Assembly (NCBI GenBank): GCA_030153385.1
Contig: JASKJN010000009.1
Coordinates: forward strand, 1 to 36,640
Origin: Archaeoglobaceae archaeon
GTDB lineage: Archaea > Halobacteriota > Archaeoglobi > Archaeoglobales > Archaeoglobaceae
Direction: 5' to 3'
DNA: 36,640 nucleotides
A program made the translations under genes and the position numbers. The notes under the pieces were generated by a model. It made no database searches. It was not told where the DNA came from and was given only the letters and a program-made list of their open reading frames with translations. This document shows positions 19,704 through 36,639 of the stretch, in pieces; position 1 is the first letter of the stretch; each line of letters begins with the position of its first letter.

Positions 19704-21572
19704 TTAGTTTAATCCGAGCTTTTCTCTCTTGCTCAGGATAACCTTTTCTATGAGCTCTGCCGCCTTTATCGGATCTTCTTCAACCAGAACTTTTCCGCCA
19801 GTCAGGCTCTCGAGATCTTCCGTTAAAAGTTTGACAGCATCCTCGCTTCCAGTTATTGGAGGAATTGGCGATACGTGGGTTGTGATTCCGTAAGCCAATG
19901 CAAATACCGCATCTATAGTTGCCTTTTGTTCCATATACTCCGGGGCGGTAACAGCGATTGGTAGCTGTGGAATGTCAACATTCAAAGCGTCCGCTATCAG
20001 TCTGACCAAATAAGCGCATCTCCCAACGTCTGTGCAGGTGCCAAAGCTGAGAACAGGCGGAATTCCAAGTGCTCTGCATACCTTTTTCAGCCCTTCTCCA
20101 GCCAATTCGATTGCATCAAGCGAAGTCAAACCAGCAACCTGCAGTGCAGCATTCCCACATCCCATTGAAAGGATCAAGATGCCCCTCTTTATCAGCTCCT
20201 TGGCGATAGTTACCGTGTTGTAATCGTGCGGACCATTTTTGAGTGTTGTACAGCTAACAAGGGCAACTATTCCCTTTATATCTCCACTCTTTATTGCATT
20301 CAGCAGCGGATCAAGATTTCCACCCAAAGCCTTCAGAATAGCTTCTGTTGAGAAGCCGACGAGTATTTTCTGCTTTTTCTGAATTCGCAAGGCCTTATCT
20401 TTATCTCTTTTCTTAAAATTCTCTATGGCCATCTCGATAAGCTTTTCAGCTATTTTTTCAACCTTTTCAGGCTCGTAGTCCATCGCTTCGTTTATTCCGC
20501 GAAATCTCACGACCTTGCTCACAGGAATGATCCTAACGCCATAGCGCTGGTATTCTGGCAATGAGGGGAGGGCACAGTTCATATCTGCTGCAAAAACATC
20601 GATGCAACTTGTTGCCAGGGCAAATTCCTGAACGATCCAGTTTCCCACTATTCCAGCAAAAACTGGACTGTCAATTCTCTGTAAAACCTCCTGACCAGTC
20701 TCTATGAATCCAATTATCCTTAAACCCTTCGCTCCAGCTTCTTTAGCTCTCCTCTGAAATTCCTCACGCTCTGCGAGCTTTATCAAAGCTACCGCTACGA
20801 AGGGCTCATGGCCATCGACTGCAACATTAACGAATTCCGGATCAAGAATTCCGAGATCCGCATGGCTTTCATGAGGCATCGGTGTTCCAAAAAGGATATC
20901 TTGGATTATCTCGAGAGATAACTGTCCTGCTAAGCAAGTTGCGATGCTCATCGCCATGCTCTTCTTAGCTAATGAAACATAGTTGCTGTCAACATTTGTC
21001 ATTGCGGATGTTCCCACAGTCAATAATTCCTGAAATACGCCAGAAGGTATTATTCCAAGCTTTTTCCATACCTCATTTCTCTTTTCCGGGGCAAAAATTT
21101 CAACAAGCTTGCTTCTCTCTACCGAGCTTAAATCCGCTATTACAAAGTCCGCAACTTTATTTGCAAGCTCTTTTACGTCATCCCCATGAATCCCAAGCAT
21201 ATTAGCGAACCACTTAAGCTTCTCAACATCCTTTATCTCATAAGGCGTCCTATTCAGCGCTGTTGCCTTAAGAGTCTTCGCAGCCTCTATCGCATGATAA
21301 GTATAGGCTTCAGTTCCGAGCATGTTCTTGTGGACAAAGTTTCTGATCACCATCCCGGCAGCGTCGATTCCACAAGCTCCGTAGGGCTTTTCCTTCCCAA
21401 TCCTGCAAGGCCCCATGCTACAAAGTTGACAGCTCAAACCTACACTGCAAAAAGGACATCTCCCCTTTTCCTGAGCTTTGAATCGATCAACGACATTCGT
21501 TACCCCTTCAGCACTCACTTTTTGATACATTTCGTTGACACTCTCATGGTAGCTAACTCTTTCCGATTCCAT
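19704..21572 (-). CDS. cooS: Anaerobic CO dehydrogenase catalytic subunit, atypical C-cluster
   Basis: A 622-residue Ni-CODH (CooS) family protein. The N-terminal cluster B/D cysteines are C39, C42/C48, C51, C56 and C67 in CPFCSVGLSCQLCSMGPCRI and GACGID. C-cluster ligands H255 (DGHEP), C333 (DMNC), C441 (VSC), C472 (GCG) and C513 (GTC) are present. However the conserved CCTGNE segment, which gives the bridging Cys, is IETGQE (I290-E291), so one Ni,Fe-cluster ligand is lost. His93 and Lys550 are kept. It may be a CODH variant with altered chemistry or a non-catalytic paralogue. It is transcribed alone, divergent from a broken HTH-10 regulator; ATTTATAAGG at about 21593-21602 is a probable promoter. 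Its end faces the tRNA-Trp. Confidence 0.88.
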   Translation of the reverse strand: MESERVSYHESVNEMYQKVSAEGVTNVVDRFKAQEKGRCPFCSVGLSCQLCSMGPCRIGKEKPYGACGIDAAGMVIRNFVHKNMLGTEAYTYHAIEAAKTLKATALNRTPYEIKDVEKLKWFANMLGIHGDDVKELANKVADFVIADLSSVERSKLVEIFAPEKRNEVWKKLGIIPSGVFQELLTVGTSAMTNVDSNYVSLAKKSMAMSIATCLAGQLSLEIIQDILFGTPMPHESHADLGILDPEFVNVAVDGHEPFVAVALIKLAEREEFQRRAKEAGAKGLRIIGFIETGQEVLQRIDSPVFAGIVGNWIVQEFALATSCIDVFAADMNCALPSLPEYQRYGVRIIPVSKVVRFRGINEAMDYEPEKVEKIAEKLIEMAIENFKKRDKDKALRIQKKQKILVGFSTEAILKALGGNLDPLLNAIKSGDIKGIVALVSCTTLKNGPHDYNTVTIAKELIKRGILILSMGCGNAALQVAGLTSLDAIELAGEGLKKVCRALGIPPVLSFGTCTDVGRCAYLVRLIADALNVDIPQLPIAVTAPEYMEQKATIDAVFALAYGITTHVSPIPPITGSEDAVKLLTEDLESLTGGKVLVEEDPIKAAELIEKVILSKREKLGLN

Positions 21573-21652
21573 GAAATAAGTTAATTTAAATCCTTATAAA
21601 TTTGCTCCCTAAGAATTTCGAAAAGATTTATCTTTCAAAGAAAACGTGAGCT

Positions 21653-22267
21653 GTGCTCGAAGTTCAGATAAGAACAAAGCTTCCAGAAAAATGCGCTCTC
21701 AGCTCGCTCAAAGAGGTTGTGAATAACTGCATTGTAAAAATAGAGGGTTTCGCAAGAAAAGATGATACTGTAAGAAGCCTGCTCCGAGTAAAGGCTAAAA
21801 AAATAGAGGATTTGCTTTCAAATCTCCCTCCACAGTGCGAGCTCGCAATAACTTCAGAGAGAGATGCTAAGATCTTGCTTAGGGAGCACAGCTGTTTTGT
21901 AGCACTGCCAATACTTGAATCGGGCTGTATAATAACTTCTGTAGAAATTAAGAAAGATCACGTTATTTGGCAGACCATCTGCAATGATGAGGACTTTTTA
22001 AGTCTGATCGAAAAGCTCGAATCCGCAAAAGGTCGAATTTGAAATAACTTAGAAGGGAAGACCTGAAGGTAAGAGCGAAATAACTTTCAGAGAAGAAGAA
22101 GTGCTGAGATTCGCTCTTGAAAAAGGTTACTTCGATTTTCCGAAGAAAATAAGGCTTGAAGAAATTGCGGAACATTTTGGGATTGCAGGTTCACCGTCTC
22201 GGAAATTCTGAGAAGAGCACAGAAGAAAATTCTCGAAAAGTATTTCAAAGAGATTGACTCCTGCTAA
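21653..22267 (+). pseudogene. Broken bat-type HTH-10 transcription regulator
   Basis: From the GTG at 21653, 129 codons are open (MLEVQIRTKLPEKCALSSLK ... EKLESAKGRI), then stop. A second frame continues with KGRPEGKSEITFREEEVLRF, ALEKGYFDFPKKIRLEEIAE and HFGIA. Near 22188 the reading must shift again to FTVSEILRRAQKKILEKYFK, stopping at 22267. The last two parts are a complete HTH-10 (bacterio-opsin activator) DNA-binding domain. At least two frame lesions therefore split one gene. It was divergent from cooS and probably regulated it. Base-call error is possible but two separate errors are less likely. The 3' end overlaps the convergent LOG-family gene by about 23 bases. Confidence 0.75.
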
Positions 22268-23411: not shown

Positions 23412-24767
23412 TCAGTCTCTTCCGTAGTCGTCATCAAGCCTTTCTATGTCATCCTCTTCGAGATATTCACCGATCTGGGTCTCAATTACTTCAAGGTCAA
23501 CCTTTCCAGGATTTTCAAGTCTGTGGAGAATTCCCGCTGGAATGAATGTGCTCTCTCCAGGGCGAAGAAGCGTCTCTTTTCCACCATAATAAACCCTCGC
23601 AGTCCCTTTAACAACCACCCAGTGCTCGCTTCTATGGTAGTGTCTCTGCAGGCTAAGTCTTTTTCCGGGCTTGATCGTAATTCTCTTTATTTTGTATCTC
23701 TCACCTTCCTCAAGCACTGTATATGAGCCCCAGGGACGATATGCGGTTCTGTGGATCACTACTCTTCTGTCGTTTTTGGCTGAAAGGGCCTTGTAGATGT
23801 CTTTGACTTTTTCAGATTCGCCTAATTTCGAAATCAGCAGAGCATCCTCCGTATCGACGATTATGAGATTCTCTACACCTATTGTCGCTACAAGCTTTTG
23901 AGCAACAATCAAATTGTTTTTGGAAGAAATGCTGACTGGTTTTTCCCCGATTACGGCGTTTCCATTCTCGTCTTTCTCAAAAATCTCATATAGAGAATCA
24001 AAGCTCCCCATATCGCTCCATTTAACTGAAAGCGGAACAACAGCCACTTTTTTCGACTTCTCAAGAATTCCAAAGTCCACAGATAATTCAGGAATGTTGC
24101 TGTATACTTCCTCGATGTCTGCATGCGTCTCAAAAGCTCTAAAGACCTCTGGAGCCAATTTTCTGACCTCCTCTACAAATATTTTTGAGTCGAAGAAGAA
24201 CATTCCGCTGTTCCAGAGATAACCCTTTTCGACAAATTCTTTTGCCTTCTCTAAATCAGGTTTCTCCTTGAATTCGTCCACGATATAGCCGTTTTCAAGC
24301 TTTTCGGAGGGCTTTATGTAGCCATAGCCTGTATGAGGCTTTGTTGGTTTGATGCCGAATGTAACCAAAAATTTCTCAGAAAGCTTCTCTGCGGTGATGA
24401 AAGCATTCCTATATTCCTCGTTAATTTCGATGAGGTGATCAGAAGGCAGGATTGCGAATTTTCCAGAGTTATTTCTCAAAACCCAGAATATAGCTGGAAG
24501 TGTGCTCTTGGCCTGAGGCTCCAAGAATATGTTTTCCTTTGGTATCTCAACGTTCAAATCCCTGAGATCGTCGAGAATTCGGAATTTATATTCCCTGTTT
24601 GCTACTATGAATATATCTTCAGGCTTAGAAAAAATCAGTGCCCTTTGCAATGTCTTCTGGAATAAACTTAAGCCATCAAAGATTTTTATAAACTGCTTCG
24701 GCATGAGCTCCCTGCTCAAAGGCCAGAGTCTCGTTCCCTTGCCACCCGCAAGAATCAAAGTTTTCAT
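23412..24767 (-). CDS. manC: Mannose-1-phosphate guanylyltransferase/mannose-6-phosphate isomerase
   Basis: A 451-residue type II bifunctional enzyme. The N-terminal nucleotidyltransferase has LAGGKGTRLWPLSRELMPKQ at 7-26 and FVEKPxx-like EFKEKPDLEKA further on. The C-terminal part (about 335-450) is a cupin with RPWGSYTVLEEGERYKIKRI, LSLQRHYHRSEHWVVVKGTA and FIPAGILHRLENPG, the phosphomannose isomerase half with its metal-binding His and Gln. Together they make GDP-mannose for glycans, N-glycosylation or compatible-solute synthesis (mannosylglycerate). The gene is transcribed alone, ending against the gene before it. Confidence 0.93.
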   Translation of the reverse strand: MKTLILAGGKGTRLWPLSRELMPKQFIKIFDGLSLFQKTLQRALIFSKPEDIFIVANREYKFRILDDLRDLNVEIPKENIFLEPQAKSTLPAIFWVLRNNSGKFAILPSDHLIEINEEYRNAFITAEKLSEKFLVTFGIKPTKPHTGYGYIKPSEKLENGYIVDEFKEKPDLEKAKEFVEKGYLWNSGMFFFDSKIFVEEVRKLAPEVFRAFETHADIEEVYSNIPELSVDFGILEKSKKVAVVPLSVKWSDMGSFDSLYEIFEKDENGNAVIGEKPVSISSKNNLIVAQKLVATIGVENLIIVDTEDALLISKLGESEKVKDIYKALSAKNDRRVVIHRTAYRPWGSYTVLEEGERYKIKRITIKPGKRLSLQRHYHRSEHWVVVKGTARVYYGGKETLLRPGESTFIPAGILHRLENPGKVDLEVIETQIGEYLEEDDIERLDDDYGRD

Positions 24768-24786
24768 AATGAAAATCTATTGGATA

Positions 24787-25479
24787 TTAATATTTTTTCA
24801 TCAGCCTCTCAATTGCACTCAGAGCTCGGCCAAAGATGCCGAATAGAGTCTGAAGCTCATAATCTCTCAGTCTTGCCCTCCCAAGAACTCTTCGAAGTGT
24901 AACAAGTTCCCTTCTTTCTCTTTGCTTTGGAAATCCTACTAGATCAAGCAATTCTGATACTTTATCGATCAGTATTTCCAGTTCTTCAGCCTTTGCAAGA
25001 TTTTCTACTCTCGGCAAGCTCTTCTTACTTAGGAAGTAGAGTAGAACCGCTGCTGCATGGCTGACGTTCATCACGGGATAAGCATCGCTCGTTGGAATCT
25101 TCACGAGCAGATGACACCTTTCTATCTCCTCGTTCAACAGCCCGAAGTCTTCTCTTCCAAAAAGAACCGCAACTTCGCCTTCGAGATATTCCAAAAGCTC
25201 TTCTGGAGTCAATAAAGGCTTTCTGAAGAACCTGTAATCCCCGCCAGAGATCCCAGTGGTGCCAACGATCAAATTGAATTTTGAAAGGAATGAAAAAAGG
25301 TCATCAACAACTACTGCATTCTCAAGCACGTCCCTTGCATTTGCTGAGGTTTTGAAGCTCTCCTCCGTTACTTTGCAATTGTAAAGGTAGAGTTTTTCGA
25401 ATCCAAAGTTTTTTACAAGGCGGGCTATGAAGCCAACGTTCTCAGGGATCTTGAGTTCAACAAGGACGACATGGATCAT
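24787..25479 (-). CDS. SPOUT RNA 2'-O-methyltransferase, TrmJ-like
   Basis: A 230-residue protein of the SpoU/TrmH class. MIHVVLVELKIPENVGFIAR starts the fold; VAVLFGREDFGLLNEEIERC and VKIPTSDAYPVMNVSHAAAV are motifs 2 and 3, which form the knotted SAM site. The order and the C-terminal helical tail resemble TrmJ, which methylates residue 32 of tRNAs. The substrate is inferred. The start overlaps the end of the cytochrome gene by 4 bases, an odd partnership of a tRNA enzyme with a respiratory operon. Confidence 0.85.
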   Translation of the reverse strand: MIHVVLVELKIPENVGFIARLVKNFGFEKLYLYNCKVTEESFKTSANARDVLENAVVVDDLFSFLSKFNLIVGTTGISGGDYRFFRKPLLTPEELLEYLEGEVAVLFGREDFGLLNEEIERCHLLVKIPTSDAYPVMNVSHAAAVLLYFLSKKSLPRVENLAKAEELEILIDKVSELLDLVGFPKQRERRELVTLRRVLGRARLRDYELQTLFGIFGRALSAIERLMKKY

Positions 25480-25901
25480 TCGCTTATGTTGGCGGAATGA
25501 GGATCATGGCAGTAGGAACATCTCACGCCACTTCCATGGCTTTCGTCCACCGTTGCTATGTTCCTTCCAGCGATGTTCTTGTGGCAGATCATGCAGGCAT
25601 CCCTTGTATCTTCAATGAGAATGCTTTCCGCAGTTCTTAAACTTGCGTGCTCTCTCCCGGATCCATGACAAGCGGAGCATTCAACCGTGGAGTGATTTCC
25701 AGAAGTGCTCGCGGTGAATACATCCAAGTGGCACTGCTTGCATGCGTCGCTCTGCACATATACTGGAGCTCTGCTTGCCTCTTTTTGATTCCAGCTTTCT
25801 ATGCTGTTCTCCTTTACGATGGGTGAAATTCCAAATGTGTAGGCTAAAACCACTCCATAAACAGCAATTGCAAAGATCAGCACGAGCAAATATGGCCTCA
25901 T
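25476..25901 (-). CDS. Membrane-anchored tetraheme cytochrome c
   Basis: The 141-residue protein has an N-terminal hydrophobic helix (YLLVLIFAIAVYGVVLAYTF) that either anchors it or is cut as a signal. Four CXXCH heme sites follow (CKQCH, CSACH, CMICH, CSYCH). It is the last respiratory gene of a three-gene set and overlaps the ferredoxin gene by 4 bases. In NrfBCD-, Qrc- and Act-like complexes such a cytochrome exchanges electrons between the quinone module and an outside partner. The partner is not in the window. Confidence 0.88.
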   Translation of the reverse strand: MRPYLLVLIFAIAVYGVVLAYTFGISPIVKENSIESWNQKEASRAPVYVQSDACKQCHLDVFTASTSGNHSTVECSACHGSGREHASLRTAESILIEDTRDACMICHKNIAGRNIATVDESHGSGVRCSYCHDPHSANISE

Positions 25902-26581
25902 AGATCCACCACCGCATCGAGGTTTATGTAAAAGACTCTTGGCAAAGTCCCAGCCTCAGGCTTTAGAACTCTGACTCGGCTATTTTTCAGAAGCTCGTAG
26001 ATTTCACTTCCTTCTTTCAGCTCACCGAATTTTCTTGCACCTGTTGGGCAGACTAAAACACATGCGGGCTTTAAACCCTTTGTAATTCTGTGGTAGCAGA
26101 AAGTGCACTTGTCCGTGACTTTCTCTTCAGGATTCACGAATGTTGCACCGTAAGGGCAGGCGGTTATGCAATACTTGCATCCAATGCATGTTTCCTTGTC
26201 TACGAGAACTATTCCCTCCTTCGTGTGGAATCTTGCGTAAACTGGACAGACGTTTACGCATGGGGCATTTGCACAGTGGTTGCACAGCTTTGGAACATAG
26301 AAACCATTTTTAGCCTTCGAATTCAGAAACGGGTTCTCATTTGTATTCATAACTATCTTTCTGCCGTCAAGATAACCTTCGATCCACGTTCTCGATATTG
26401 GAAGCTCCATCGGCACATGATTCTCTGTTTTGCATGCAATCACACACTTCCCACAGCCAATGCACTTCTCGACGTCGATCACCATCGCAACACTTCCTGC
26501 ATTCCTAGAATTCGCTGGCATAGAGATTGCTGGAATAAATGGAATAGCAAGCAGAGTCTTCAGAAACTCTCTACGAAGCAT
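25898..26581 (-). CDS. Tat-exported ferredoxin subunit with four [4Fe-4S] sites (NrfC/PsrB-like)
   Basis: The 227-residue protein starts MLRREFLKTLLAIPFIPAIS, a twin-arginine signal (RREFLK) that sends the folded protein outside. Cys groups follow in the order typical of the DmsB/NrfC/PsrB class: CIGCGKCVIAC, CNHCANAPCVNVC, CIGCKYCITAC and CTFC...CVLVC. It relays electrons between the NrfD-type membrane protein encoded just upstream and the cytochrome downstream. Overlaps of 11 and 4 bases with the neighbours show one operon. Confidence 0.92.
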   Translation of the reverse strand: MLRREFLKTLLAIPFIPAISMPANSRNAGSVAMVIDVEKCIGCGKCVIACKTENHVPMELPISRTWIEGYLDGRKIVMNTNENPFLNSKAKNGFYVPKLCNHCANAPCVNVCPVYARFHTKEGIVLVDKETCIGCKYCITACPYGATFVNPEEKVTDKCTFCYHRITKGLKPACVLVCPTGARKFGELKEGSEIYELLKNSRVRVLKPEAGTLPRVFYINLDAVVDL

Positions 26582-27836
26582 GCTCCACCTCCATTGGAAG
26601 GAATTTGTAAACTAGATAATAAGCCAGTAGGGCCAAAGCCAAGGCTCCGATGGCGAACATAGCTTCAAAGGGATGAACTTGGGTTGGGATCGAAATTCCA
26701 GAGATGTTCTTCCCGACTTGGCCACCAAAAATGAAGTCAATTCTGAAGACGAAGAGTCCGATTATCACGAATAGAGCAGAAATGAAGATCGCTTTTATCC
26801 TATTGCCAGCAAAGAGAAGCAGGAATAGCGGAATGAGCATACCAACAGTCAATTCAAGGATCCAGAAGTTGAAAGCATAGCTTCCGAAAAGAATGTTCCT
26901 CACCGCTTCGCTCGCTGGTTGATTCACACCGGGATAGCCAACGATTATGAACTTCCAGGCATTGAATAGGATCGCAATTATAAGCGTAAAGGCGAGGAGA
27001 TTCTTTAGGACAGGTAGCGCTAATATTTTTTCACTTGAGCCTTTGAGCGAAGAAGTTATGACTGCAGAGAGTATAAGAACTGCAGAACCACCTATTATTG
27101 CAGATATTATAAAGTATATCGGAGTGGTCGCATCATGCCACAGTGGAATGTAGGGTGCGCTGAAAAGTGCTCCCAAGTTGCTGTATGCCAATATCGCCGT
27201 TATCAGTGCCACAACTCCGATAGGCATTGCAAAGCTCATGTCAAGCTCTCTGTTCGGATTGACGAGGAATTTGCCCAATCTACGCAATCTCTGAGATTCA
27301 ACGATCTCGATCTTCAGCAGAAAGTCACCGATAAACTTGAGTGAGAGGAGCTTTCCTAAAAAGCCTTTAAATCCCCTCTGCTTCGATTGTGCCAGAAGAT
27401 CCGCTCTAAAGTAGAACCAACCCTCTATCACCAGAAAAACGACTTCGAGGACGTAAAACATGATCATCCAGTACATCACGCTCGTTGGATTTGCATGTCC
27501 CAGCAATGCATATGCTCCCCTTTCTATCCTTTCGAGGTCTACTGCAATTGTAAGAAGTCCTACAGCAATTGAGATGACTGCAATTACTATCGCATCCTTC
27601 ACAATAACCTCAAGCTGTCTTATATGCAGAATCTCTGCAGCTGAAGCTATCGCAGCGGTGCCTATGAGCACAAGAAAAACGTATAGTGCTACGAGAGTTC
27701 TCCACGGAATCCCAAGAGCACTTTCAAAGGGCTCCACTGGCATGATTGTTTGGAAGTGCATCTGATAAGCTCCAAAAATTCCCAGAGATATCAAGGCAAG
27801 CATCGCTAAAATGAATGCGATCTCAGTTAGCCTCAA
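26571..27836 (-). CDS. NrfD/PsrC-like quinone-interacting membrane subunit
   Basis: A 421-residue protein with about ten hydrophobic helices, typical of the polysulfide reductase NrfD family. These have no heme and exchange electrons between menaquinone and an outside ferredoxin subunit. The start is probably TTG at 27836, with GAGGTGA a few bases before. It heads the operon NrfD - ferredoxin - tetraheme cytochrome. No molybdopterin catalytic subunit is encoded here, so the complex more likely links quinone to cytochromes than to its own reductase. Direction of electron flow cannot be read from sequence. Confidence 0.88.
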   Translation of the reverse strand: MRLTEIAFILAMLALISLGIFGAYQMHFQTIMPVEPFESALGIPWRTLVALYVFLVLIGTAAIASAAEILHIRQLEVIVKDAIVIAVISIAVGLLTIAVDLERIERGAYALLGHANPTSVMYWMIMFYVLEVVFLVIEGWFYFRADLLAQSKQRGFKGFLGKLLSLKFIGDFLLKIEIVESQRLRRLGKFLVNPNRELDMSFAMPIGVVALITAILAYSNLGALFSAPYIPLWHDATTPIYFIISAIIGGSAVLILSAVITSSLKGSSEKILALPVLKNLLAFTLIIAILFNAWKFIIVGYPGVNQPASEAVRNILFGSYAFNFWILELTVGMLIPLFLLLFAGNRIKAIFISALFVIIGLFVFRIDFIFGGQVGKNISGISIPTQVHPFEAMFAIGALALALLAYYLVYKFLPMEVEHAS

Positions 27837-28558
27837 TCTCTCACCTCTTCCCTCTGCTCAAGTCTTAGCTTTTTAAGTTTTTCCCAATTGATCCAAGGTG
27901 TTAATCTTGGCTAAACTTGGTTATGGTTAAGAAACTTCATTAAAAAGAATCCAGAATATGGTTATATTTCACACCCCTAAATTTTAAGGGACGCCATCAG
28001 AAATTATATCGTTTATCTTGAAAATATTAAGAAAGGAAGCAAAGGAAAATGGTTAAAATCGGAGAAAGGAACAATCGATTAAGGTGTTTCAGCACTCGCT
28101 GTAATGGGCAGGCGAGGTATCTTCTTAAGATATACCTCACAGATGCGGAAAACCAGGAATTGGAGTTCTATTTCTTAGACTTAAGCGGTGCTCAGAAGTT
28201 ATTTTTGGATGTAGAGTTAGTAAGTGGAGAAAAAATGCATTAAGAGTTTCCTCTGGACTCTCATAAACAAAATCTTACGCCTCTTACCTTGCCTCTGAAT
28301 ATACTTCCTTCTCCGCAATCCAGTAGTTTCTATACCGATTGACATCTTGGTAGTTCTCATTATCCTAATTGCTTTATCGGTAGCCTACTTAATTGTGAAG
28401 AATAGAAAGAGACGTAGCAGAACTTCTCTGTTGTATGGGGGATGCAGTAAATGCAATACAATGGAGACGTCCGGTTAACAGTCGGAAAAAGAGAATTCTT
28501 TGTCTTAGAAACTTATAGAAGCTTTTCAAAGACCAGATCCAATTCTGTCAGAGCTAAA
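27837..28558. other. Gene-poor 720-base stretch with decayed coding traces
   Basis: The left end (to about 27900) holds the promoter region of the NrfD operon. A 64-codon frame at 28049-28243 on the plus strand (MVKIGERNNRLRCFSTRCNG...) has no recognisable family. At about 28311-28480 one frame encodes a hydrophobic helix followed by basic residues (VVSIPIDILVVLIILIALSV, then AYLIVKNRKRRSR). That is the look of a C-terminal membrane anchor, but no start codon is present and a TGA stands before it. The two may be pieces of one broken surface protein. Nothing else is supported. Confidence 0.35.
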
Positions 28559-29269
28559 TTATTCGATCTTCATAGATTTAGCGTATTCGCGAGCAGCGAT
28601 CTGCCTCTTACACCTATCGCAAATTATTTCCATCATTCCAAGGCTCTCTGCATGCTTTTTAGAAATAACGAACCTTCCGCAGATACTGCACTCTAACATT
28701 TCATGATGGGCAACGATCAGCTTTTCAACAACGATCTCCCCCTTTTCATCAAATCTTATCGCTCCCGTTGGACAGATGTTCACACATGCGAGGCAACCTC
28801 TACAGATTTCGGTCTCAATTTCGAAGGGAGGTGAGACCCTTTTTTCGATACCCCTTCCTTCAAAGGAGATCGCATGGGCTCCCATAATCGAGCACACGTT
28901 AACGCACAATCCACAGAGAATACACCTTCTTTCTCCCTCAACAGCTATGCCGTAGCGGGAGGCCAAATTCTCCACAAGATCCGATGATGTGTATTTTGCA
29001 AGAAGCTCGATTATCCCTTTCCTGAGATCTTCAATCCTCTTTGAGTTCGTCCTAACCTTCATACCACCTCTAACGTCTGTGGAGCAGGAGGTTACAACCC
29101 TCCACTCTCCGTTAACTTCAATCTCTACTATACAGAGTCTACATGCACCATAGCTTCCAACCGCTTTGTGATAGCAGATATGTGGTATTTCAAAGCCGAG
29201 ATCTAGAAGAATTTCCAGAAGATTACCTTTTTTTACATCAAATATCGTGCCATCTACTTCAATTCTCAT
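28559..29269 (-). CDS. NuoG-N-like iron-sulfur subunit with C-terminal zinc ribbon-like tail
   Basis: A 236-residue protein. The N-terminal [2Fe-2S] domain reads CYHKAVGSYGACRLC with a further Cys in TSCST. Two [4Fe-4S] sites follow: CILCGLCVNVC and CRGCLACVNIC. The tail (CSICGRF ... CDRCK) carries four Cys like a small metal ribbon. It equals the electron-wiring part of NuoG, HndD or FdhA without any hydrogenase or molybdenum domain. Its start overlaps the NuoF-like stop by 4 bases. It probably bridges the flavin subunit and the CODH/CooF pair. It ends the operon. Confidence 0.82.
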   Translation of the reverse strand: MRIEVDGTIFDVKKGNLLEILLDLGFEIPHICYHKAVGSYGACRLCIVEIEVNGEWRVVTSCSTDVRGGMKVRTNSKRIEDLRKGIIELLAKYTSSDLVENLASRYGIAVEGERRCILCGLCVNVCSIMGAHAISFEGRGIEKRVSPPFEIETEICRGCLACVNICPTGAIRFDEKGEIVVEKLIVAHHEMLECSICGRFVISKKHAESLGMMEIICDRCKRQIAAREYAKSMKIE

Positions 29270-31038
29270 ATTCTCTCCACCGCATCGAATTTGCAGACTT
29301 TAAAGCATGACCCACATTTTATGCACAGATCTTGATCTATCGAAAAAACATCGTCTGTCTTTTTGATCGCACCGACTGGACAGTTGATCTCACACAAACC
29401 GCATGAAACGCACTTCTCAGGCAAAATACTGTATCTCACAAGTGCCCTGCACACACCAGCAGGACATCTCCCTCTAATGTGCTCTAAATACTCCTCCCTG
29501 AAATACTTTAAAGTCGTTAAAAGTGGATTTGGTGCCGTCTTTCCCAAACCGCAGAGAGAGGCTGTAGCAACGATATCGGCAAGCTTTTCAAGTCTTTCGA
29601 TATCTTCTTGACTCCCTTCACCTTGTGTGATCCTCAGAATTACTCCAAACATCTCGTTCAATCCGAGTCTGCAGGGAATACATTTACCACATGACTCAGC
29701 CTTTGTGAACTCCAAGAAGTATTTGGCAACGTCAACCATGCACGAATCGTTACCAATAACCACTAATCCTCCAGAACCCATGACAGAACCCAATTCCACC
29801 AGCCTTTCGTAATCAACGGGAACATCCATCAGTTCAACTGGTACGCATCCTCCCGTCGGCCCCCCTGTCTGCACAGCCTTCACATCGTCTGCTTCCCCGA
29901 TCTCCAAAACTATCTCCCTCAGCGAAATCCCCATTGGAACTTCGATCAGCCCGGTGTTCTTTACCTTCCCTACTACAGAAAAAACCTTTGTTCCCTTGCT
30001 TTTTTCTGTTCCAAAGGATGCAAAAAACTTCCAGCCCTTCAATATTATCACAGGGATGTTTGCCCAGGTCTCCACGTTATTTATCACGGTTGGTTTTTCC
30101 CAGAGACCTTTCTCAGCAGGATAAGGGGGCCTTATTCTTGGTTCACCCGGATATCCCTCAATCGATGCGATCAGGGCGGTTTCTTCTCCGCAAACAAAGG
30201 CACCAGCCCCTTTAACAATATGAATCTCAAAGGAAAAGTCGGAATCCATTATATTTTCACCCAGAAATCCGTTATCTTTTGCAATTTTAACAGCTTCCTC
30301 AAGAGTTCTAACAGCCAGTGGATATTCGTTTCTAACGTAGATGAAGCCTTTATTCGAACCTACAGCGTATGCACCTATTGTCATTCCCTCTATCACGCTG
30401 AATGGATCTCCCTCAAGAACACTTCGGTCCATGTAAGCTCCCGGATCTCCTTCATCCGCATTGCATATTACAAACTTCTCCCCCTCATTTTTCCGTGCTA
30501 TTTCCCACTTCATTCCTGTTGGGAACCCCGCTCCGCCCCTTCCTCTTAATCCCGATTTTTTTATCTCTTCAATAATCTCTTCAGGTTTCATTTCGAGAGC
30601 TTTTTGAAGGGCGTGGTATCCTCCCATGGCGATGTACTGCTCAATACTGAGCGGTTCAATCACACCGCAGTTTCTCAAAACGATCTTCACTTGCTTTCTG
30701 TAGAAGGGGTGCTCCCTTAGATGGGGGAGGTTGTGATGCCCTTCAAGTTCCGGATGATCGATTTCAAGCGGAGAGAATTCCCAAGGATAGAACCATCCTA
30801 AAATTTCGGCCTTTTCAAGTTCCTTAACATTTCTGTAAACGATCGGAGCCTTTCCATCCTCCTGGACAGAAACAAGGGGTTCGGCAGAGCAAAATCCCAG
30901 ACATCCAACTCCTTTGGCGTTAAGAGACTCTTTTACCTTTAAGGCACCGGCAGCGATTCCGCAAGTGGATGTTCCCACCGTAATCCTTTCGCCGTATAAC
31001 GAGCAGATCCCCTTCTCCTTAAGTTTTTGTAGATCCAC
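29266..31038 (-). CDS. NuoF/HndC-like FMN- and NAD(P)-binding subunit
   Basis: A 590-residue diaphorase. A thioredoxin-like [2Fe-2S] domain (about 1-90, TSTCGIAAGA and GCLGFC) is followed by the FMN/NAD(P)H domain with GLRGRGGAGFPTGMKWEIAR and NADEGDPGAYMDRSVLEGDP. Then come an SLBB fold and the [4Fe-4S] site ESCGKCIPCRLGLNEM. The C-terminus adds two ferredoxin sites, CVSCGLCEINC and CIKCGSCFKVC. This layout is that of HndC, HydB and HoxF-type subunits in NAD(P)-linked, often electron-bifurcating, enzymes. Its placement with CooS and CooF suggests CO-dependent reduction of NAD(P)+. It overlaps the NuoE-like gene by about 20 bases. Confidence 0.92.
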   Translation of the reverse strand: MDLQKLKEKGICSLYGERITVGTSTCGIAAGALKVKESLNAKGVGCLGFCSAEPLVSVQEDGKAPIVYRNVKELEKAEILGWFYPWEFSPLEIDHPELEGHHNLPHLREHPFYRKQVKIVLRNCGVIEPLSIEQYIAMGGYHALQKALEMKPEEIIEEIKKSGLRGRGGAGFPTGMKWEIARKNEGEKFVICNADEGDPGAYMDRSVLEGDPFSVIEGMTIGAYAVGSNKGFIYVRNEYPLAVRTLEEAVKIAKDNGFLGENIMDSDFSFEIHIVKGAGAFVCGEETALIASIEGYPGEPRIRPPYPAEKGLWEKPTVINNVETWANIPVIILKGWKFFASFGTEKSKGTKVFSVVGKVKNTGLIEVPMGISLREIVLEIGEADDVKAVQTGGPTGGCVPVELMDVPVDYERLVELGSVMGSGGLVVIGNDSCMVDVAKYFLEFTKAESCGKCIPCRLGLNEMFGVILRITQGEGSQEDIERLEKLADIVATASLCGLGKTAPNPLLTTLKYFREEYLEHIRGRCPAGVCRALVRYSILPEKCVSCGLCEINCPVGAIKKTDDVFSIDQDLCIKCGSCFKVCKFDAVERI

Positions 31039-31420
31039 CTTCCAACCCCCTCTCGACCAGCTTTCGAAGTCTGCTTATGGTCATCTTTCCGTGAATTTCT
31101 CCATCGATCACAACAACGGGAGCCATGCTACATGCACCGAAACATCTTATCGGCTCGTAACCTAGATTAACCCCATCAACATATCCCCTTATAGCATCCT
31201 CTAGAACCTCTGATCCCTTGATCACACAAGCGGTTCCCTTACAGATGTTGATCTTATGCTTTGCAGGAGGTTTTAGGGAAAAAGCTGAATAGAATGTGGC
31301 TATGGAGTACAACCTGCTGATGGGAACGTTAAATTTGCTTGAAATTCTTTTAAGCTCCTCTTTCGGTAGATATCCGTATCTGTTTTGTATATCAAGAAGA
31401 GAATTGATTAAAAATTCCAT
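31019..31420 (-). CDS. NuoE-like thioredoxin-fold [2Fe-2S] subunit
   Basis: A 133-residue protein starting MEFLINSLLDIQNRYGYLPK, with helical N-terminus and a thioredoxin-like domain. The [2Fe-2S] ligands are C-x4-C in CKGTAC and C-x3-C in CFGAC, as in NuoE/HndA. The ATG at 31420 has GGTGATT just before; the longer frame to 31462 would overlap cooS. It lies 10 bases after the cooS stop and overlaps the NuoF-like start. It is the partner of the flavin subunit in every known diaphorase of this class. Confidence 0.92.
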   Translation of the reverse strand: MEFLINSLLDIQNRYGYLPKEELKRISSKFNVPISRLYSIATFYSAFSLKPPAKHKINICKGTACVIKGSEVLEDAIRGYVDGVNLGYEPIRCFGACSMAPVVVIDGEIHGKMTISRLRKLVERGLEGGSTKT

Positions 31421-31430
31421 TGAATCACCT

Positions 31431-33284
31431 TTAAATTCCGAGCTTCTTTCGTTTTTTATCAATGTGCTTTATTATCACCTCAGCCGCCTTCTCAGGATCG
31501 GGCTCGACGACAAATTTACCCCCAGTCAGCTCCTCCACTTTGTTAGTCAGAACATCGAGCACCAACTGGCTTCCGTGTATCGGCGGTGGAACGCCCAATA
31601 CCACGAGAAGTCCTGAGCTAACGAAGTAAGTTCCGATCGCAATGGCCTTCTCGGAATACCATTCCATTGCCGCTCCGGCTGCAGGCAGATCGCTTATATC
31701 AACACCCAATTCGTTTGCAAGGGCACACAATGCGACGAGAATTCTTGAGTTATCAACACAGGAGCCGACGTGAAGAACCGGCGGGATTTTAAGGGCCTCG
31801 CATACCTTTTTCAGCCCATCTCCGGCAAGATTCGCACTCCCCATCCTTTTCAGACCAGCTTTCGCATCCGCAACGGCGGCACATCCAGTATCCAAAACGA
31901 GAACATCATTTTCTATCAACTTCTTCGCAAGTACCGTGTGTCCGTAATCTTGCCTTACCTTTGGATTGTTGCAACCAACAGATCCGACAACTCCCTTTAT
32001 GCTACCTTCCTTGATAGCATCGATGAGGGGTTGAAGAGTCCCTCCAAGTGCCTTAACTATAGCTTCTACTGAGAACCCTGTCATCAACTCCATTGGCTTA
32101 ACATCTGGGATTTTTATGAAATCTGGATTTCTCTTTCTGAATCTCTCTATCGCAAGCTTTAGAACTTCTCTTGCTTTTTCATCAGCATTTTCAGGCGTAA
32201 ACTCTATATGAATTGCTCCCTTAAACTTCGCTTTCGGAGATGTTGTGACCACGGCTGTATGATAGCATTTTGCTACATCCACAATTCCGGGCATTATACA
32301 TTGGTAGTCAACGATTATCACATCCACAACCCCGGTTCCGATGACAAGCTCCTGTAGCAGATGATTTCCTGCCATTGGAATACCTTTCCTCATAAGAACT
32401 TCATTTCCAGTGCAACAAAGTCCCGCGAGATTTATGCCATCCGCTCCTGCTTCTTTTGCAAGTCTTGTGATCTCTTCATCGGAGGCAGCTTCCACCACAG
32501 CTTCCGATACAATGGGATTGTGTCCGTGAAGAATCACGTTCACTTCATTCTTCTTGAGGGTTGCGAGGTTGATCGTTGACACTTTCGGCTGCGGTGTTCC
32601 GAAAAGGATGTCCGAGACTTCTGTGGCGATCATGGAACCTCCAAATCCATCTGCTAAAGAAGCCCTCATGCACTGGAGAAGGATGTTGACTGGATCGTTG
32701 TCAACACCCATGTGTGTCCTGTGCATAAGCTCAACAACTTCTCTGTCAATTCCCCTTGGGATTATTCTGAGCTTTTCCCAAATTTCCAATCTTCTCTTGG
32801 GGGCTCTGTCAATCATCTGAATCCTTTCTTTCTTCGAGCCAAAATCCTCCATCATCGATTCTGCAAGTTCATGGGCGATTTCTTCAACGCTTTTTGAAGT
32901 ATCAATCCCGTACTCCTGCGCCAATCTCTTCAACTTCTCCCCATCTCTCACAGAGTATGCTTTTATTTTTCCAACCAATGCCAAAACCTCGACTAAATCT
33001 CTCCCATGATCGCTGTGAGATGCGGCACCAGAAGCTACAGCTCTTGCGAGATTCCTCGCCACTATTATGTCTGCATCCGCTCCGCATACGCCTTTCTGCG
33101 GTTCATCTCCAAAGGGATTAATCCTGCAGGGACCCATGGCACAGTTTCTACAGCTCAAACCGAGGGCGCAGAATCCACACTGAGGTTCCTGTTTTTCCAA
33201 TCTATCCCACACGAGGTCGATACCTTCTTTCTTCAGCTTTTCAATCATAATTTTGGCATCTTTTTGGATTGTTTTTTCTCCCAT
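31431..33284 (-). CDS. cooS: Anaerobic CO dehydrogenase catalytic subunit, canonical
   Basis: A 617-residue Ni-CODH with all expected ligands. Cluster B/D cysteines C36, C39, C45, C48, C53 and C67 lie in CGFCALGLSCRNCAMGPCRI and GVCGA. The C-cluster has HGHNP, GLCCTGNEVLMR, DYQCIMP, SVGCNNP, DTGCAA and GSCVD. ASHSDHGR holds the catalytic His. It oxidises CO to CO2 and passes electrons through clusters B and D. ATG 33284 has GAGGTGG; a GTG three codons earlier is less likely. It follows the CooF-like gene directly and precedes NuoE/F/G-like genes. No acetyl-CoA synthase subunits or cooC are nearby, which suggests a CO-oxidising rather than acetyl-CoA-forming role. Confidence 0.95.
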   Translation of the reverse strand: MGEKTIQKDAKIMIEKLKKEGIDLVWDRLEKQEPQCGFCALGLSCRNCAMGPCRINPFGDEPQKGVCGADADIIVARNLARAVASGAASHSDHGRDLVEVLALVGKIKAYSVRDGEKLKRLAQEYGIDTSKSVEEIAHELAESMMEDFGSKKERIQMIDRAPKRRLEIWEKLRIIPRGIDREVVELMHRTHMGVDNDPVNILLQCMRASLADGFGGSMIATEVSDILFGTPQPKVSTINLATLKKNEVNVILHGHNPIVSEAVVEAASDEEITRLAKEAGADGINLAGLCCTGNEVLMRKGIPMAGNHLLQELVIGTGVVDVIIVDYQCIMPGIVDVAKCYHTAVVTTSPKAKFKGAIHIEFTPENADEKAREVLKLAIERFRKRNPDFIKIPDVKPMELMTGFSVEAIVKALGGTLQPLIDAIKEGSIKGVVGSVGCNNPKVRQDYGHTVLAKKLIENDVLVLDTGCAAVADAKAGLKRMGSANLAGDGLKKVCEALKIPPVLHVGSCVDNSRILVALCALANELGVDISDLPAAGAAMEWYSEKAIAIGTYFVSSGLLVVLGVPPPIHGSQLVLDVLTNKVEELTGGKFVVEPDPEKAAEVIIKHIDKKRKKLGI

Positions 33285-33286
33285 AA

Positions 33287-33829
33287 TTACCACCTCACAA
33301 ACCAGACAACATCTTTAAGTCGTACTGTTGATTTCTTGGCTTCCTCCTTTCCTTCAACAAAGAACTTTGCAGCTTCTATTTTTCTTTTAGCCGAAAGTTC
33401 ATCGACTTTTTCAAATTTTAATGCACCAACTGGACAGAATTCAACACATGCTGGAATTTTTCCTTTCTCGAGCCGATCGACACACTGATCGCATTTGAAT
33501 GCGGTTCTTTCGAAACGAATTGCTCCAAAGGGGCAGACGATGGCACAGCTTCTACATCCGATACACTTAGACTGATCGATTATGACGGGGCCTTTAGAGC
33601 TCCTTTCGATCGCATCCGTAGGGCACACTCCAAGACAGGGAGCATCGATGCAGTGCCTGCAGTTCATGGGAACAGGGACGCCAACGAAAACAACATCCAT
33701 GCGGGGCTTGACACCTTCCATCACTGCTGAGATGAGATTTTTTCCCTTAGAGTGCTCGATCGCACATGCAATTTCGCACGTCTTACAGCCGACACATAAA
33801 TTCAGATCGGGATACAGAACGAGCATCAT
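33287..33829 (-). CDS. cooF: CooF-like polyferredoxin
   Basis: A 180-residue protein with four [4Fe-4S] sites in the HycB/CooF arrangement: CVGCKTCEIAC, CRHCIDAPCLGVC, CIGCRSCAIVC and CDQC...CVEFC. CooF takes electrons from CooS cluster D and passes them on, in bacteria to a hydrogenase. Here the downstream genes encode a NuoEFG-like diaphorase instead. It has no signal peptide, so it is cytoplasmic. It is the first gene of the operon; AAATATATG near 33853-33861 on this strand is a likely TATA box, giving a nearly leaderless mRNA. It ends within the cooS ribosome binding site. Confidence 0.88.
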   Translation of the reverse strand: MMLVLYPDLNLCVGCKTCEIACAIEHSKGKNLISAVMEGVKPRMDVVFVGVPVPMNCRHCIDAPCLGVCPTDAIERSSKGPVIIDQSKCIGCRSCAIVCPFGAIRFERTAFKCDQCVDRLEKGKIPACVEFCPVGALKFEKVDELSAKRKIEAAKFFVEGKEEAKKSTVRLKDVVWFVRW

Positions 33830-34003
33830 ATATAGTTGTAATAACTTTATGACATATATTTGTTTTGGGTAGTCAGTTTATACATGTGTTGCAGTAGTTT
33901 CAGGATTTTGTAACGAATCTGAAAAATTCTTGATTTAAGTTAGGTTTTATGTTAAAGCAAAGATCTGCAAAAGGCTCATATCTGATGAAATAATTTAAGG
34001 ACT
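33830..34003. other. Intergenic region with the cooF promoter
   Basis: AT-rich region between the CODH operon and the integrase remnant. It holds the minus-strand TATA-like element near 33853-33861. AGTT-GTAAT-AACT at about 33834-33846 is a small inverted repeat beside the cooF start. I see no gene. Confidence 0.4.
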
Positions 34004-34273
34004 TTGAAGGACAGAGGGAAAGTAAGAATCAGAGAAAGGCTCCAAAATCCAAAAGAAGCCAGCAGAAAGGACTTGCACGTTAGGATTTCTAAAGAAGCTT
34101 ATGACTGGCTAAAGGAAAACGTCTCTAACATCTCGAAATTCATAGAAAGGCTCGTTGAAGGCTCGAAATCCCAGATCCAGCAGGCTTATGTTCTGATTTC
34201 AAAATCGGAAACGCCGCCGGCAGGATTCGAACCTGCGACCATGTGGTTAACAGCCACACGCTCCACCAGCTGA
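34004..34273 (+). pseudogene. N-terminal integrase fragment, int(N), ending in tRNA-Asn
   Basis: A TTG-started frame of 89 codons. The first 66 (KDRGKVRIRERLQNPKEASR, KDLHVRISKEAYDWLKENVS and NISKFIERLVEG) are basic and helical and resemble the start of archaeal tyrosine integrases. The last 23 (PPAGFEPATMWLTATRSTS) are the antisense reading of tRNA-Asn. SSV-type archaeal integrases have their attachment site inside the gene and typically show this PAGFEPAT-type segment, then split into int(N) and int(C) on insertion. The C-terminal catalytic part is not seen in the window. An unrelated RHH-like small gene running by chance into the tRNA is the alternative. Confidence 0.55.
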
Positions 34274-34284
34274 GCTACGGCGGC
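34212..34284 (-). tRNA. tRNA-Asn (GTT)
   Basis: On the minus strand GCCGCCG pairs with CGGCGGC, the D arm holds AGCTCAGCTGGTGGAGC, the anticodon stem TGTGG/CCACA encloses CTGTTAA with anticodon GTT, and the T arm is GCAGG-TTCGAAT-CCTGC. The discriminator is G, as usual for tRNA-Asn. No intron and no encoded CCA. Confidence 0.95.
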
Positions 34285-34474
34285 ATTAGTGTTAGTCATC
34301 AACGAATACTTAAGAGATTTTCGAAACATCGCGATTTAAAAAATTACCGAATAGCATGAGCAGCCAATTGCATTTATTATTTAAGTCCAATTGATCACAA
34401 ATTTTTTAACTTTTTCTCCGCGCTGGTTGTGCTTTGCAAAAAATTTGCCGGTAGGCATATCCAAGCGTTTTAAC

Positions 34475-35224
34475 TTAAAGTTCAGGAACGAAGAGAATTT
34501 TGCCATCGTACTTTACGATCTCCGCCCTAATGCCATAGACTGCACTAAGCACTTCTTCGTTGATGCTCTCTCTGCCACCGAATGCAAAGATCTTCCCATC
34601 CTTAAGCACGAGAACTTTTTCAGCATAGTTTAAAGCGAGATTTATGTCATGCATTGTAATGATCGCTGAAATCCTTTTCTCCTTGACCACATTCTTTATA
34701 ATTCTCATCACCTCGATCTGGTTCCTTATGTCGAGATTGTTTGTTGGCTCATCGAGAAGCAAATATTTTGGCTCCTGAGCAAAGGCTCTTGCGATCAGCA
34801 CGAGCTGAAGCTCTCCACCGCTAAGCTCATTCAGCATCCTGAATGCAAGGTGTTCAATTTTCAGCATTCTTATCGTCTCTTCAACTATCTCTATATCTCT
34901 CCGGCTTGCCTCCCAGCCTATGTATGGTCTTCTACCAAGAAGAATCGCATCAAAGACTGTTAAAAAGCTAATTTCTCCCCTTTGCGGAACATAGCCGAAC
35001 TTTTTTGCTATTTCTTTCTGAGATAGCTTTCTCAAGTCTATTTTCTCAACAAAAACCGCTCCTTTTGGCTTTAAAATTCCATTCAGGCATTTCAAAAGCG
35101 TTGTCTTTCCGCTTCCGTTTGGCCCGATGATGAAAAGGATTTCTCCTTCACCCAAAGAAAAGCTTACTTCTTTTAGAACGTCTTTATTACTATAGGAGTA
35201 GTTGATGTTTTCAACCTCTAACAT
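34475..35224 (-). CDS. ABC transporter ATPase, FecE/BtuD class
   Basis: The 249-residue protein has Walker A GPNGSGKTTLLKCL, Q-loop VPQRGEISFLTVFDAILLGR, signature LSGGELQLVLIARAFAQEP, Walker B YLLLDEPTNNLD and the switch His in ITMHDINLALNYAEKV. This is the type that drives import of iron-siderophores, heme or cobalamin. The ATG at 35224 has a GAGGTGG before it and overlaps the permease gene by 14 bases; the upstream GTG is less likely. The substrate is unknown. Cobalamin would suit the corrinoid-dependent genes in the window, iron the cytochromes. Confidence 0.92.
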   Translation of the reverse strand: MLEVENINYSYSNKDVLKEVSFSLGEGEILFIIGPNGSGKTTLLKCLNGILKPKGAVFVEKIDLRKLSQKEIAKKFGYVPQRGEISFLTVFDAILLGRRPYIGWEASRRDIEIVEETIRMLKIEHLAFRMLNELSGGELQLVLIARAFAQEPKYLLLDEPTNNLDIRNQIEVMRIIKNVVKEKRISAIITMHDINLALNYAEKVLVLKDGKIFAFGGRESINEEVLSAVYGIRAEIVKYDGKILFVPEL

Positions 35225-36254
35225 TCCTACCACCTCTCAAAAGAAGATAGATGAACATTGGAGCGCCTATTATGGAGGTGATTATACCAACCGGGATTAT
35301 TACGGGAGAGATCACAAGCCGTCCAAGCGTGTCTGAGGCTAACAAAATTATCGCTCCAACAAATGCACTTGTGGGAATCAGGAATCTGTAGTCCCCTCCA
35401 ATAACAAGCCTAACGATGTGCGGAGAAACTAAACCGATGAATCCGATTATACCTGTGAAGGACACGCAGACTGCGGTTAAGAGGGATGAAAGTAGCATCC
35501 CCTCGAGTCTCAGTCTCTGCGGATTCACACCGAGCGAAATAGCGGTTTCATCTCCCGCTAAAAGCGAGTTGTAGTCCCACCGATGGTAAAAGAAGTATGT
35601 GAAGCAAAGGAGGAATGTGGCGATTATAAGGTAAATTTCAATCCATCTCGCTCTTCCAACGTCTCCAAAAGTCCAGAAGACGATCGAGGCTACCTGGACG
35701 TCGGTTGCGAAATACTGGATCAGCATGACTCCCGCTTGGAATAATGCAGACATTGCAACGCCGGCAAGGATTATAGCCTCTGGTGTCAAGTCCCGAAGCT
35801 TTGCAATTGCCAAGATCACGAATGCGCTGATTAAAGAGCCAAAGAAAGCAAATAATGGAACCAGGTAAGGGTTAAAGATCGTCAGATTTTCGCCAATCCT
35901 GTGCATTTGACCCGCTCCGAGGTAGACTATGGCAATCGCCGCTCCAAATGCAGCACCCTGTGATATGCCAAGCGTGAACGGAGAAGCAAGCGGATTTTTG
36001 AGAATGCACTGCATAACTGCCCCCGCGATAGCCAGACTCGCTCCGACAAAAATCGCAGAAACTATTCTTGGAATTCTAACATTCCATAGAACAGGACTTC
36101 CTTCTAAAATCGCATTAAAAAGCTCTTTCACCGACATCTGGTATGCTCCAAGCCCCAGCGCTACTGCGGATAAGAAAATGAGTAGAAAAATAAGAAGTAT
36201 CCCGAATGATATCCTTTTCCACAGAAGTCTTTTGTATTCACCAGCTACCAACAT
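35211..36254 (-). CDS. ABC transporter permease, FecCD/BtuC family
   Basis: A 347-residue protein with about ten membrane helices. Family segments are VRIPRIVSAIFVGASLAIAG, NPLASPFTLGISQGAAFGAA, AGDETAISLGVNPQRLRLEG, and GFIGLVSPHIVRLVIGGDYR. The third segment is the coupling loop that contacts the ATPase. It forms the channel for an iron-chelate or cobalamin. It lies between the binding-protein gene (17-base overlap) and the ATPase gene, in the usual order. Confidence 0.93.
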   Translation of the reverse strand: MLVAGEYKRLLWKRISFGILLIFLLIFLSAVALGLGAYQMSVKELFNAILEGSPVLWNVRIPRIVSAIFVGASLAIAGAVMQCILKNPLASPFTLGISQGAAFGAAIAIVYLGAGQMHRIGENLTIFNPYLVPLFAFFGSLISAFVILAIAKLRDLTPEAIILAGVAMSALFQAGVMLIQYFATDVQVASIVFWTFGDVGRARWIEIYLIIATFLLCFTYFFYHRWDYNSLLAGDETAISLGVNPQRLRLEGMLLSSLLTAVCVSFTGIIGFIGLVSPHIVRLVIGGDYRFLIPTSAFVGAIILLASDTLGRLVISPVIIPVGIITSIIGAPMFIYLLLRGGRNVRG

Positions 36255-36639
36255 CGATAACCCCTAGTCCTCCGTATTTTGAGGCAATATCGTCGTAAAT
36301 TGCCTTGCCAACGAAGAACTGGTATATTTCATTCGCCTTTTCCTTCATGTTCAAATCTTCGAACTTTTCCGGATAAAGAACCTTGCCTACCCAGTAGCTG
36401 TCAACCAAAGCCTGCTCGACGTTGGTATTGTAGAAGTTGAAGGAATAAATTCCGTATACTTTTCCATCTCTGAATGCATTTAGCGATTGGTAAAAACTCC
36501 TGTCCTTTGAGTAGTCCTCCTTAACCAGGAAAAGATTACCGAGATCCAGAAAGATAACTTCTGGCTGTTCTTTAAGCAAGAATTCCTTGTCTATGAAAAC
36601 ATGTGCGCTCGTGTTGACCTTGCATGCGATATTCTGGCT
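36238..36639 (-). CDS. ABC transporter substrate-binding protein, C-terminal part
   Basis: The reading frame runs off the right window edge; about 133 codons are present, ending GGLGVIDVGSW. LKEQPEVIFLDLGNLFL and GKVYGIYSFNFYNTNVEQAL are typical of the second lobe of FepB/BtuF-type binding proteins. VDSYWVGKVLYPEKFEDLNM and YQFFVGKAIYDD come near the end. Its place before a FecCD permease and ATPase confirms the type. The signal peptide and ligand-contacting first lobe lie outside the window, so the ligand cannot be inferred. Confidence 0.85.
   Translation of the reverse strand, partial: SQNIACKVNTSAHVFIDKEFLLKEQPEVIFLDLGNLFLVKEDYSKDRSFYQSLNAFRDGKVYGIYSFNFYNTNVEQALVDSYWVGKVLYPEKFEDLNMKEKANEIYQFFVGKAIYDDIASKYGGLGVIDVGSW

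Follow-up and report, generated by a model that had tools for sequence, protein, structure and literature searches.

Suicidal integrases of the pT26-2, pTN3 and SSV families (PF16795) carry the attachment (att) site inside their own gene, which is split into int(N) and int(C) upon integration at tRNA 3' ends (PMC8371274). Members of the pT26-2 family use 14 tRNA targets in Thermococcales, and suicidal integrases have already been reported in Archaeoglobales (PMC8371274). The ArcVen-P3 provirus of Archaeoglobus veneficus, located at tRNA-Ser, has an SSV-like split integrase, a 55-nt direct repeat and an int(N) that was originally unannotated (PMC4158269). An element trapped via its split integrase joins the chromosome, a route of gene capture in archaeal chromosomes for which She et al. 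(2001) are cited in PMC8371274. In 'Ca. Methanoperedens', a 156-kb circle shares cooS and nitrate-reductase genes with the chromosome (PMC13079737).

The window, the whole 36,640-nucleotide stretch of Archaeoglobaceae DNA that was analyzed, is contig C14 of an assembly of 1.40 Mb in 79 contigs that is 95% complete. It contains an integrase-like frame at a tRNA gene and, to its left, a CODH operon, arranged as follows.

23412 to 27836, minus strand: left chromosomal flank with HmcC/HybB-like, Fe-S, cytochrome c, TrmJ and GMP/PMI genes; same order in genomes G003, G002 and G007
27884 to 28558, no strand: gene-poor left edge of the insert; DNA conserved upstream of hmcC stops at about 27883
28099 to 28454, plus strand: truncated, stop-containing AN1 zinc-finger/transglutaminase-like gene; 86-87% DNA identity to the copy on contig C33
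28559 to 29269, minus strand: hoxU/nuoG-like gene, operon member
29266 to 31038, minus strand: nuoF-like gene, operon member
31019 to 31462, minus strand: nuoE-like gene, operon member
31431 to 33293, minus strand: cooS1 (TIGR01702, 723 bits)
33287 to 33829, minus strand: cooF, in the operon (28559 to 33829) that is the probable captured cargo
34004 to 34210, plus strand: int(N), N-terminal part (predicted to be ribbon-helix-helix-like) of an SSV-type integrase, reaching the tRNA 3' end
Onward to 34273, plus strand: extension of the int(N) frame inside the antisense of tRNA-Asn; the start of the frame is degenerate (TTG)
34211 to 34285, minus strand: tRNA-Asn(GTT), found with ARAGORN, the attachment gene, whose 3' part would be att
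34475 to 36579, minus strand: right chromosomal flank, a FecCD/BtuC-type ABC transporter, which adjoins tRNA-Asn also in G003 and G007

The open reading frame at 34004-34273 of the plus strand encodes 89 amino acids from a TTG start, with no ATG in the window copy. It begins with a basic helical domain, LKDRGKVRIRERLQNPKEASRKDLHVRISKEAYDWLKENVSNISKFIERLVEGSKSQIQQAYVLISKSE, and passes from this predicted DNA-binding leader into the antisense of the tRNA-Asn 3' end, which yields the peptide PPAGFEPAT. Because the frame enters tRNA-Asn from the 3' side, the element would have lain on the left, with int(N) reading rightward into the tRNA, as an earlier note on this DNA had proposed. That note had given the span of the feature as 34004-34284; the start stands, but the frame stops at 34273, and 34284 lies near the tRNA 5' end. 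The leader of the window frame had no match in Pfam or PHROGs, every Pfam match of its copy on contig C1 fell under the cut-off, and no relative of the leader was found in the viral contigs searched. An AlphaFold2 model of the leader was poor (pLDDT 57), too poor for a structure search, and the weak match to CcdA (ribbon-helix-helix type) that bears on its fold was seen only in an integrase of G020.

Copies of the leader DNA were detected elsewhere in the same assembly, on C69 (81% over 252 bp, E 1.9e-63), on C1 (77%, E 5.6e-43) and, in pieces, on C33 and C21 (82% and 74%, E 1.5e-31 and 1.9e-20), two contigs that overlap by 99 identical bases. These copies adjoin the 3' ends of tRNA-Thr(GGT), tRNA-Lys(CTT) and tRNA-Met(CAT), respectively. 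The int(N) frame is open at tRNA-Asn and tRNA-Lys and broken by stops or a frameshift at tRNA-Thr and tRNA-Met. Comparison of the leader with the C1 copy gave a dN of 0.088 and a dS of 1.97 (dN/dS ~0.04), and the leader therefore diverged under strong constraint. This constraint may predate integration, when the domain belonged to a working integrase. Behind the int(N) at tRNA-Thr(GGT) on C69 (L042 3843-8239), the genes include a Holliday-junction endonuclease-like gene, a weak F-93-type winged-helix match and a Cdc6-like ATPase, a plasmid- or virus-like content. At tRNA-Lys(CTT) on C1 (L043 6540-15824), the int(N) is the most intact of the genome, and the stretch behind it contains small regulator-like genes together with a DNA methylase/ResIII helicase pair resembling type III restriction-modification.

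The leader was also searched in 60 relatives and, by profile, in ten genomes of the genus, and was found to be widespread. In the genus, the profile search recovered about 26 distinct loci; the Met copy, which in the window genome spans two contigs (C33/C21), is counted once. Among these loci, 24 lie at a tRNA 3' end in the same antisense orientation, and 13 tRNA species are hit: Asn, Thr GGT, Lys CTT, Met, Ser GCT, Leu CAG/TAA/GAG, Gly GCC/TCC, Phe, Ile and Arg TCG. One of the two exceptions, L216 in G002, joins the end of the leader, a tRNA-Gly-type att peptide and the catalytic domain in one open frame, and the same arrangement, interrupted by a stop and a frameshift, was found at L065 in G024. 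Full-length integrases of G019 and G020 (L047/L048) follow the same plan and match PF16795. In public genomes, leader loci were found in MAGs assigned to Archaeoglobales, Archaeoglobi, Archaeoglobaceae, Archaeoglobus, Geoglobus and Ferroglobus.

Sister elements with both ends were found at other tRNA genes, with att repeats of 42-52 bp. One of these, in G007 (L224), has the leader at tRNA-Gly; 15 kb away, 50 bp of the tRNA 3' end are repeated (96%), followed by an int(C) of the PF16795 family. Its cargo is of the type I restriction-modification kind, and the genes between the two ends are two HsdM, HsdS, DUF3800 and HsdR. The leader shows homology to the N-terminal part of PF16795 integrases, whether full-length or split, as seen in L216, L065 and this G007 pair. 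Contig C8 of G020 (L268 86-17607) bears a tandem pair of SSV-type elements at tRNA-Lys, whose units are identical over 8,766 bp with a period of 8,724 bp. The pair begins with int(C) on the left and ends with int(N)-tRNA-Lys on the right, and its junction bears a full-length integrase frame of 353 aa; if this is not an assembly artefact, tandem integration would restore a suicidal integrase gene within the chromosome. At L061 (4800-6237), int(C) and int(N)-tRNA-Lys are only ~320 bp apart, the element having shrunk to little beyond the integrase halves.

Two other readings of the window frame were weighed. A chance open frame across an antisense tRNA, unrelated to integrases, would draw on the fact that antisense tRNA frames yield GFEPAT-like peptides anywhere, and many weak matches of the leader search are only that. 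However, the homology lies in the 50-60 residues preceding the tRNA, is common to loci with different tRNAs and continues into the catalytic domain in relatives. The window frame is not a chance one, because the same leader adjoins other tRNA 3' ends in the same genome, and this explanation, now scarcely credible, is refuted by L216, where leader and catalytic domain are fused in the same frame, and by L065, where a frameshift interrupts the fusion. Retention of int(N) as a stand-alone ribbon-helix-helix DNA-binding protein with its own function would fit the low dN/dS against the C1 copy and the intact frames at tRNA-Asn and tRNA-Lys. It is nonetheless very unlikely, as stops or frameshifts interrupt the copies at tRNA-Thr and tRNA-Met, the window copy lacks an ATG and constraint can predate integration. 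The window frame is almost certainly, by its sequence relationships, an SSV-type int(N). The frame itself and its homologues at other tRNAs bear out the earlier claim of an SSV-type int(N) running into antisense tRNA-Asn, and we regard its position at the split-integrase border of a tRNA-Asn element as predicted with very high confidence.

To the left of this border, an insert of 6.3 kb (~27884-34210) separates int(N)/tRNA-Asn from the hydrogenase-like (HmcC) block and holds the CODH operon. It is specific to this genome and lies between the att border and a conserved chromosomal flank. In G003, the gene order is ABC transporter, tRNA-Asn, o21653, CooS2, HmcC, Fe-S, cytochrome c, TrmJ, GMP/PMI and SLOG, and between the same flanks in the window tRNA-Asn is followed by int(N), cooF, cooS1, nuoE, nuoF, hoxU and the gene-poor stretch before HmcC. 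CooS2 adjoins HmcC in G002, and in G007, as in G003, CooS2 and its small neighbor gene stand directly at tRNA-Asn. In the window, CooS2 is found at 19704-21572, and its pair with o21653 occupies 19704-22042, with the small gene inverted relative to CooS2. This displacement indicates that the locus has also been rearranged, and the insert therefore need not stem from one event.

The gene-poor stretch had been described earlier as holding decayed frames that might mark a border. The decay is real and corresponds to the truncated AN1 zinc-finger/transglutaminase gene, and the stretch marks the other edge of the insert, where synteny with the relatives ends. On C33, an intact gene of this type (524 aa) lies ~2.1 kb from int(N)/tRNA-Met. 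It belongs to an island between tRNA-Pro and tRNA-Met that is missing at the same place in G003, G006 and G007, in which the upstream block ending Csl4-RpoL-thioesterase-tRNA-Pro is conserved. Since a gene of this island recurs in broken form at the opposite edge of the insert, there is circumstantial support for the insert as an island of the same kind. The pseudogene, a possible link of the insert to the int(N)/tRNA-Met island, is not an element hallmark gene.

CODH genes move between lineages, and the vehicle is rarely seen. The window operon unites CooS and CooF with NuoE-, NuoF- and HoxU-like proteins, and from these family assignments it would oxidize CO by CooS and pass the electrons through CooF to a NuoEF/HoxU-like diaphorase that reduces NAD(P)+. 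None of the nine other genomes of the genus has CooS1; their best matches, ~40% identical, are the paralogue CooS2. At E below 1e-180, CooS1 is found in 9 of 55 genomes of the family, the window genome included. Operons of G018, G028 and G067, also Archaeoglobaceae, have a CooF-CooS-NuoE-NuoF-HoxU gene order like that of the window, with identities to it of 63-65% for CooF, 64-66% for NuoE, 76-77% for NuoF and 56-61% for HoxU. Their CooS, however, is only 53-56% identical to CooS1, and no int(N) was found there. CooS proteins of G019, G021, G065 and G072 are 79-83% identical to CooS1 and are accompanied by a different CooF and no NuoEF. This mosaic suggests that cooS was replaced in the operon. 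At 45.6%, the G+C content of the operon is close to the 43.8% of its surroundings, a point against arrival as cargo. None of the eight other loci of the family with a related CooS showed an integrase or any int(N) or int(C) trace. A tRNA-Arg lies near the G067 operon, but another open frame separates the two, and it was therefore not taken as support.

Neither far-end hallmark of a whole SSV-type integrated element, int(C) or the direct repeat, was found. A repeat of the tRNA-Asn 3' end, expected at 42-52 bp, occurs nowhere in the window or the 1.40-Mb assembly apart from other tRNAs, which extends to the entire assembly what had been noted earlier for the window. Likewise, no int(C) partner for the window int(N) was found anywhere in the 95%-complete assembly, and the only int(C) of the genome, which is also its only PF16795 match, is part of another element, at tRNA-Leu(TAA) on C69. 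This 3.7-kb element (L042 10980-14763) has a 52-bp perfect att repeat, an int(C) with one stop, a DNA methyltransferase-like gene and a gene of no assigned family, and a frame that by its sequence motifs is putatively DNA polymerase B-like runs into att. As a far-end att remnant in the gene-poor stretch of the window, the best match to tRNA-Asn was the 9-mer GGTTAACAG near 28473, which was rejected (p=0.16 by shuffling). The far end of the window element is either lost or in the missing 5% of the genome. Because it was not found, we infer, and do not observe, carriage of the operon by the element.

We propose that an element with an SSV-type ('suicidal') integrase entered the 3' end of tRNA-Asn(GTT), cutting its own integrase gene in two as it integrated, so that int(N) (34004-34210) now runs into a tRNA gene made whole again. 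The operon would have been carried by this element, or by a composite built up from several insertions at this tRNA. Once attR and int(C) had been deleted at the left end, excision would no longer have been possible, and the operon would have become fixed in the chromosome, a presumed case of gene capture. The main rival holds that int(N) is indeed left over from a lost element and that the CODH operon came or moved beside it independently, either through homologous recombination or through a rearrangement, at a tRNA hot spot where relatives already have a CODH neighbor, CooS2. The missing att and int(C) partners speak for such an arrival, as do the other CODH loci of the family without integrase traces, the position of CooS2 next to tRNA-Asn in G003 and G007 and its displacement in the window, and the mosaic operon, in which the affinities of CooS and NuoF differ. 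A solo int(N) at tRNA-Phe on contig C3 of G007 (L050 4369-4811), ~165 bp from tRNA-Pro with no cargo between, points the same way and shows that int(N) can persist without any island. Against independent arrival stand the edges of the insert, one of which coincides with int(N)/tRNA and the other with an island-type pseudogene, and we consider such an arrival possible but not favored.

Capture by loss of int(C) and attR is the most likely explanation, and the CODH-diaphorase operon was probably captured as cargo of the integrase element. The earlier proposal that the operon lies on an integrated element is partly borne out: the operon is inside a genome-specific insert, and against its carriage by the element speak the missing attR and int(C), the CODH loci free of integrases and the rearrangement of the locus. 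One refuting check set out in the earlier note, the same CODH-diaphorase genes in a syntenic place with no integrase trace, did not overturn the proposal: in G003, the syntenic place is held by the different, ~40% identical CooS2. More tentatively, we suggest that an NAD-linked CODH operon was cargo of a suicidal-integrase family that hits at least 13 tRNA species in one genus, that loss of int(C) fixed a mobile CO-oxidation trait, and that int(N) stubs at tRNA genes could serve as tags for cataloguing captured islands. If a suicidal integrase captured the operon, its int(N) stub is the footprint of the vehicle, and the same stub search can find further captured islands in Archaeoglobaceae. 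That one int(N) family has spread over 13 tRNA species in a single genus is also relevant to how an integrase with a built-in target site comes to switch targets.

No paper on a CODH operon in an SSV-type element was found in the open-access literature. Suicidal integration in archaea is already established and capture by this route already described, and the advance here is a modest one, the unusual probable cargo. The window family shares with SSV-type integrases the split at tRNA 3' ends and the many tRNA targets, whereas the window itself has int(N) alone, with no partner half and a leader without a Pfam match. ArcVen-P3 comes from the same host order and has an SSV-like split integrase; unlike the window locus, which lacks a far end and holds a metabolic operon, it has both ends and virus-like genes. 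The 'Ca. Methanoperedens' element ties cooS to an archaeal mobile element, as is proposed for the window, but is a circle and not a tRNA-borne integrase element. The trapping route would be that of the gene capture for which She et al. (2001) are cited, as far as that citation describes it, with a CODH-diaphorase operon as the proposed captured cargo.
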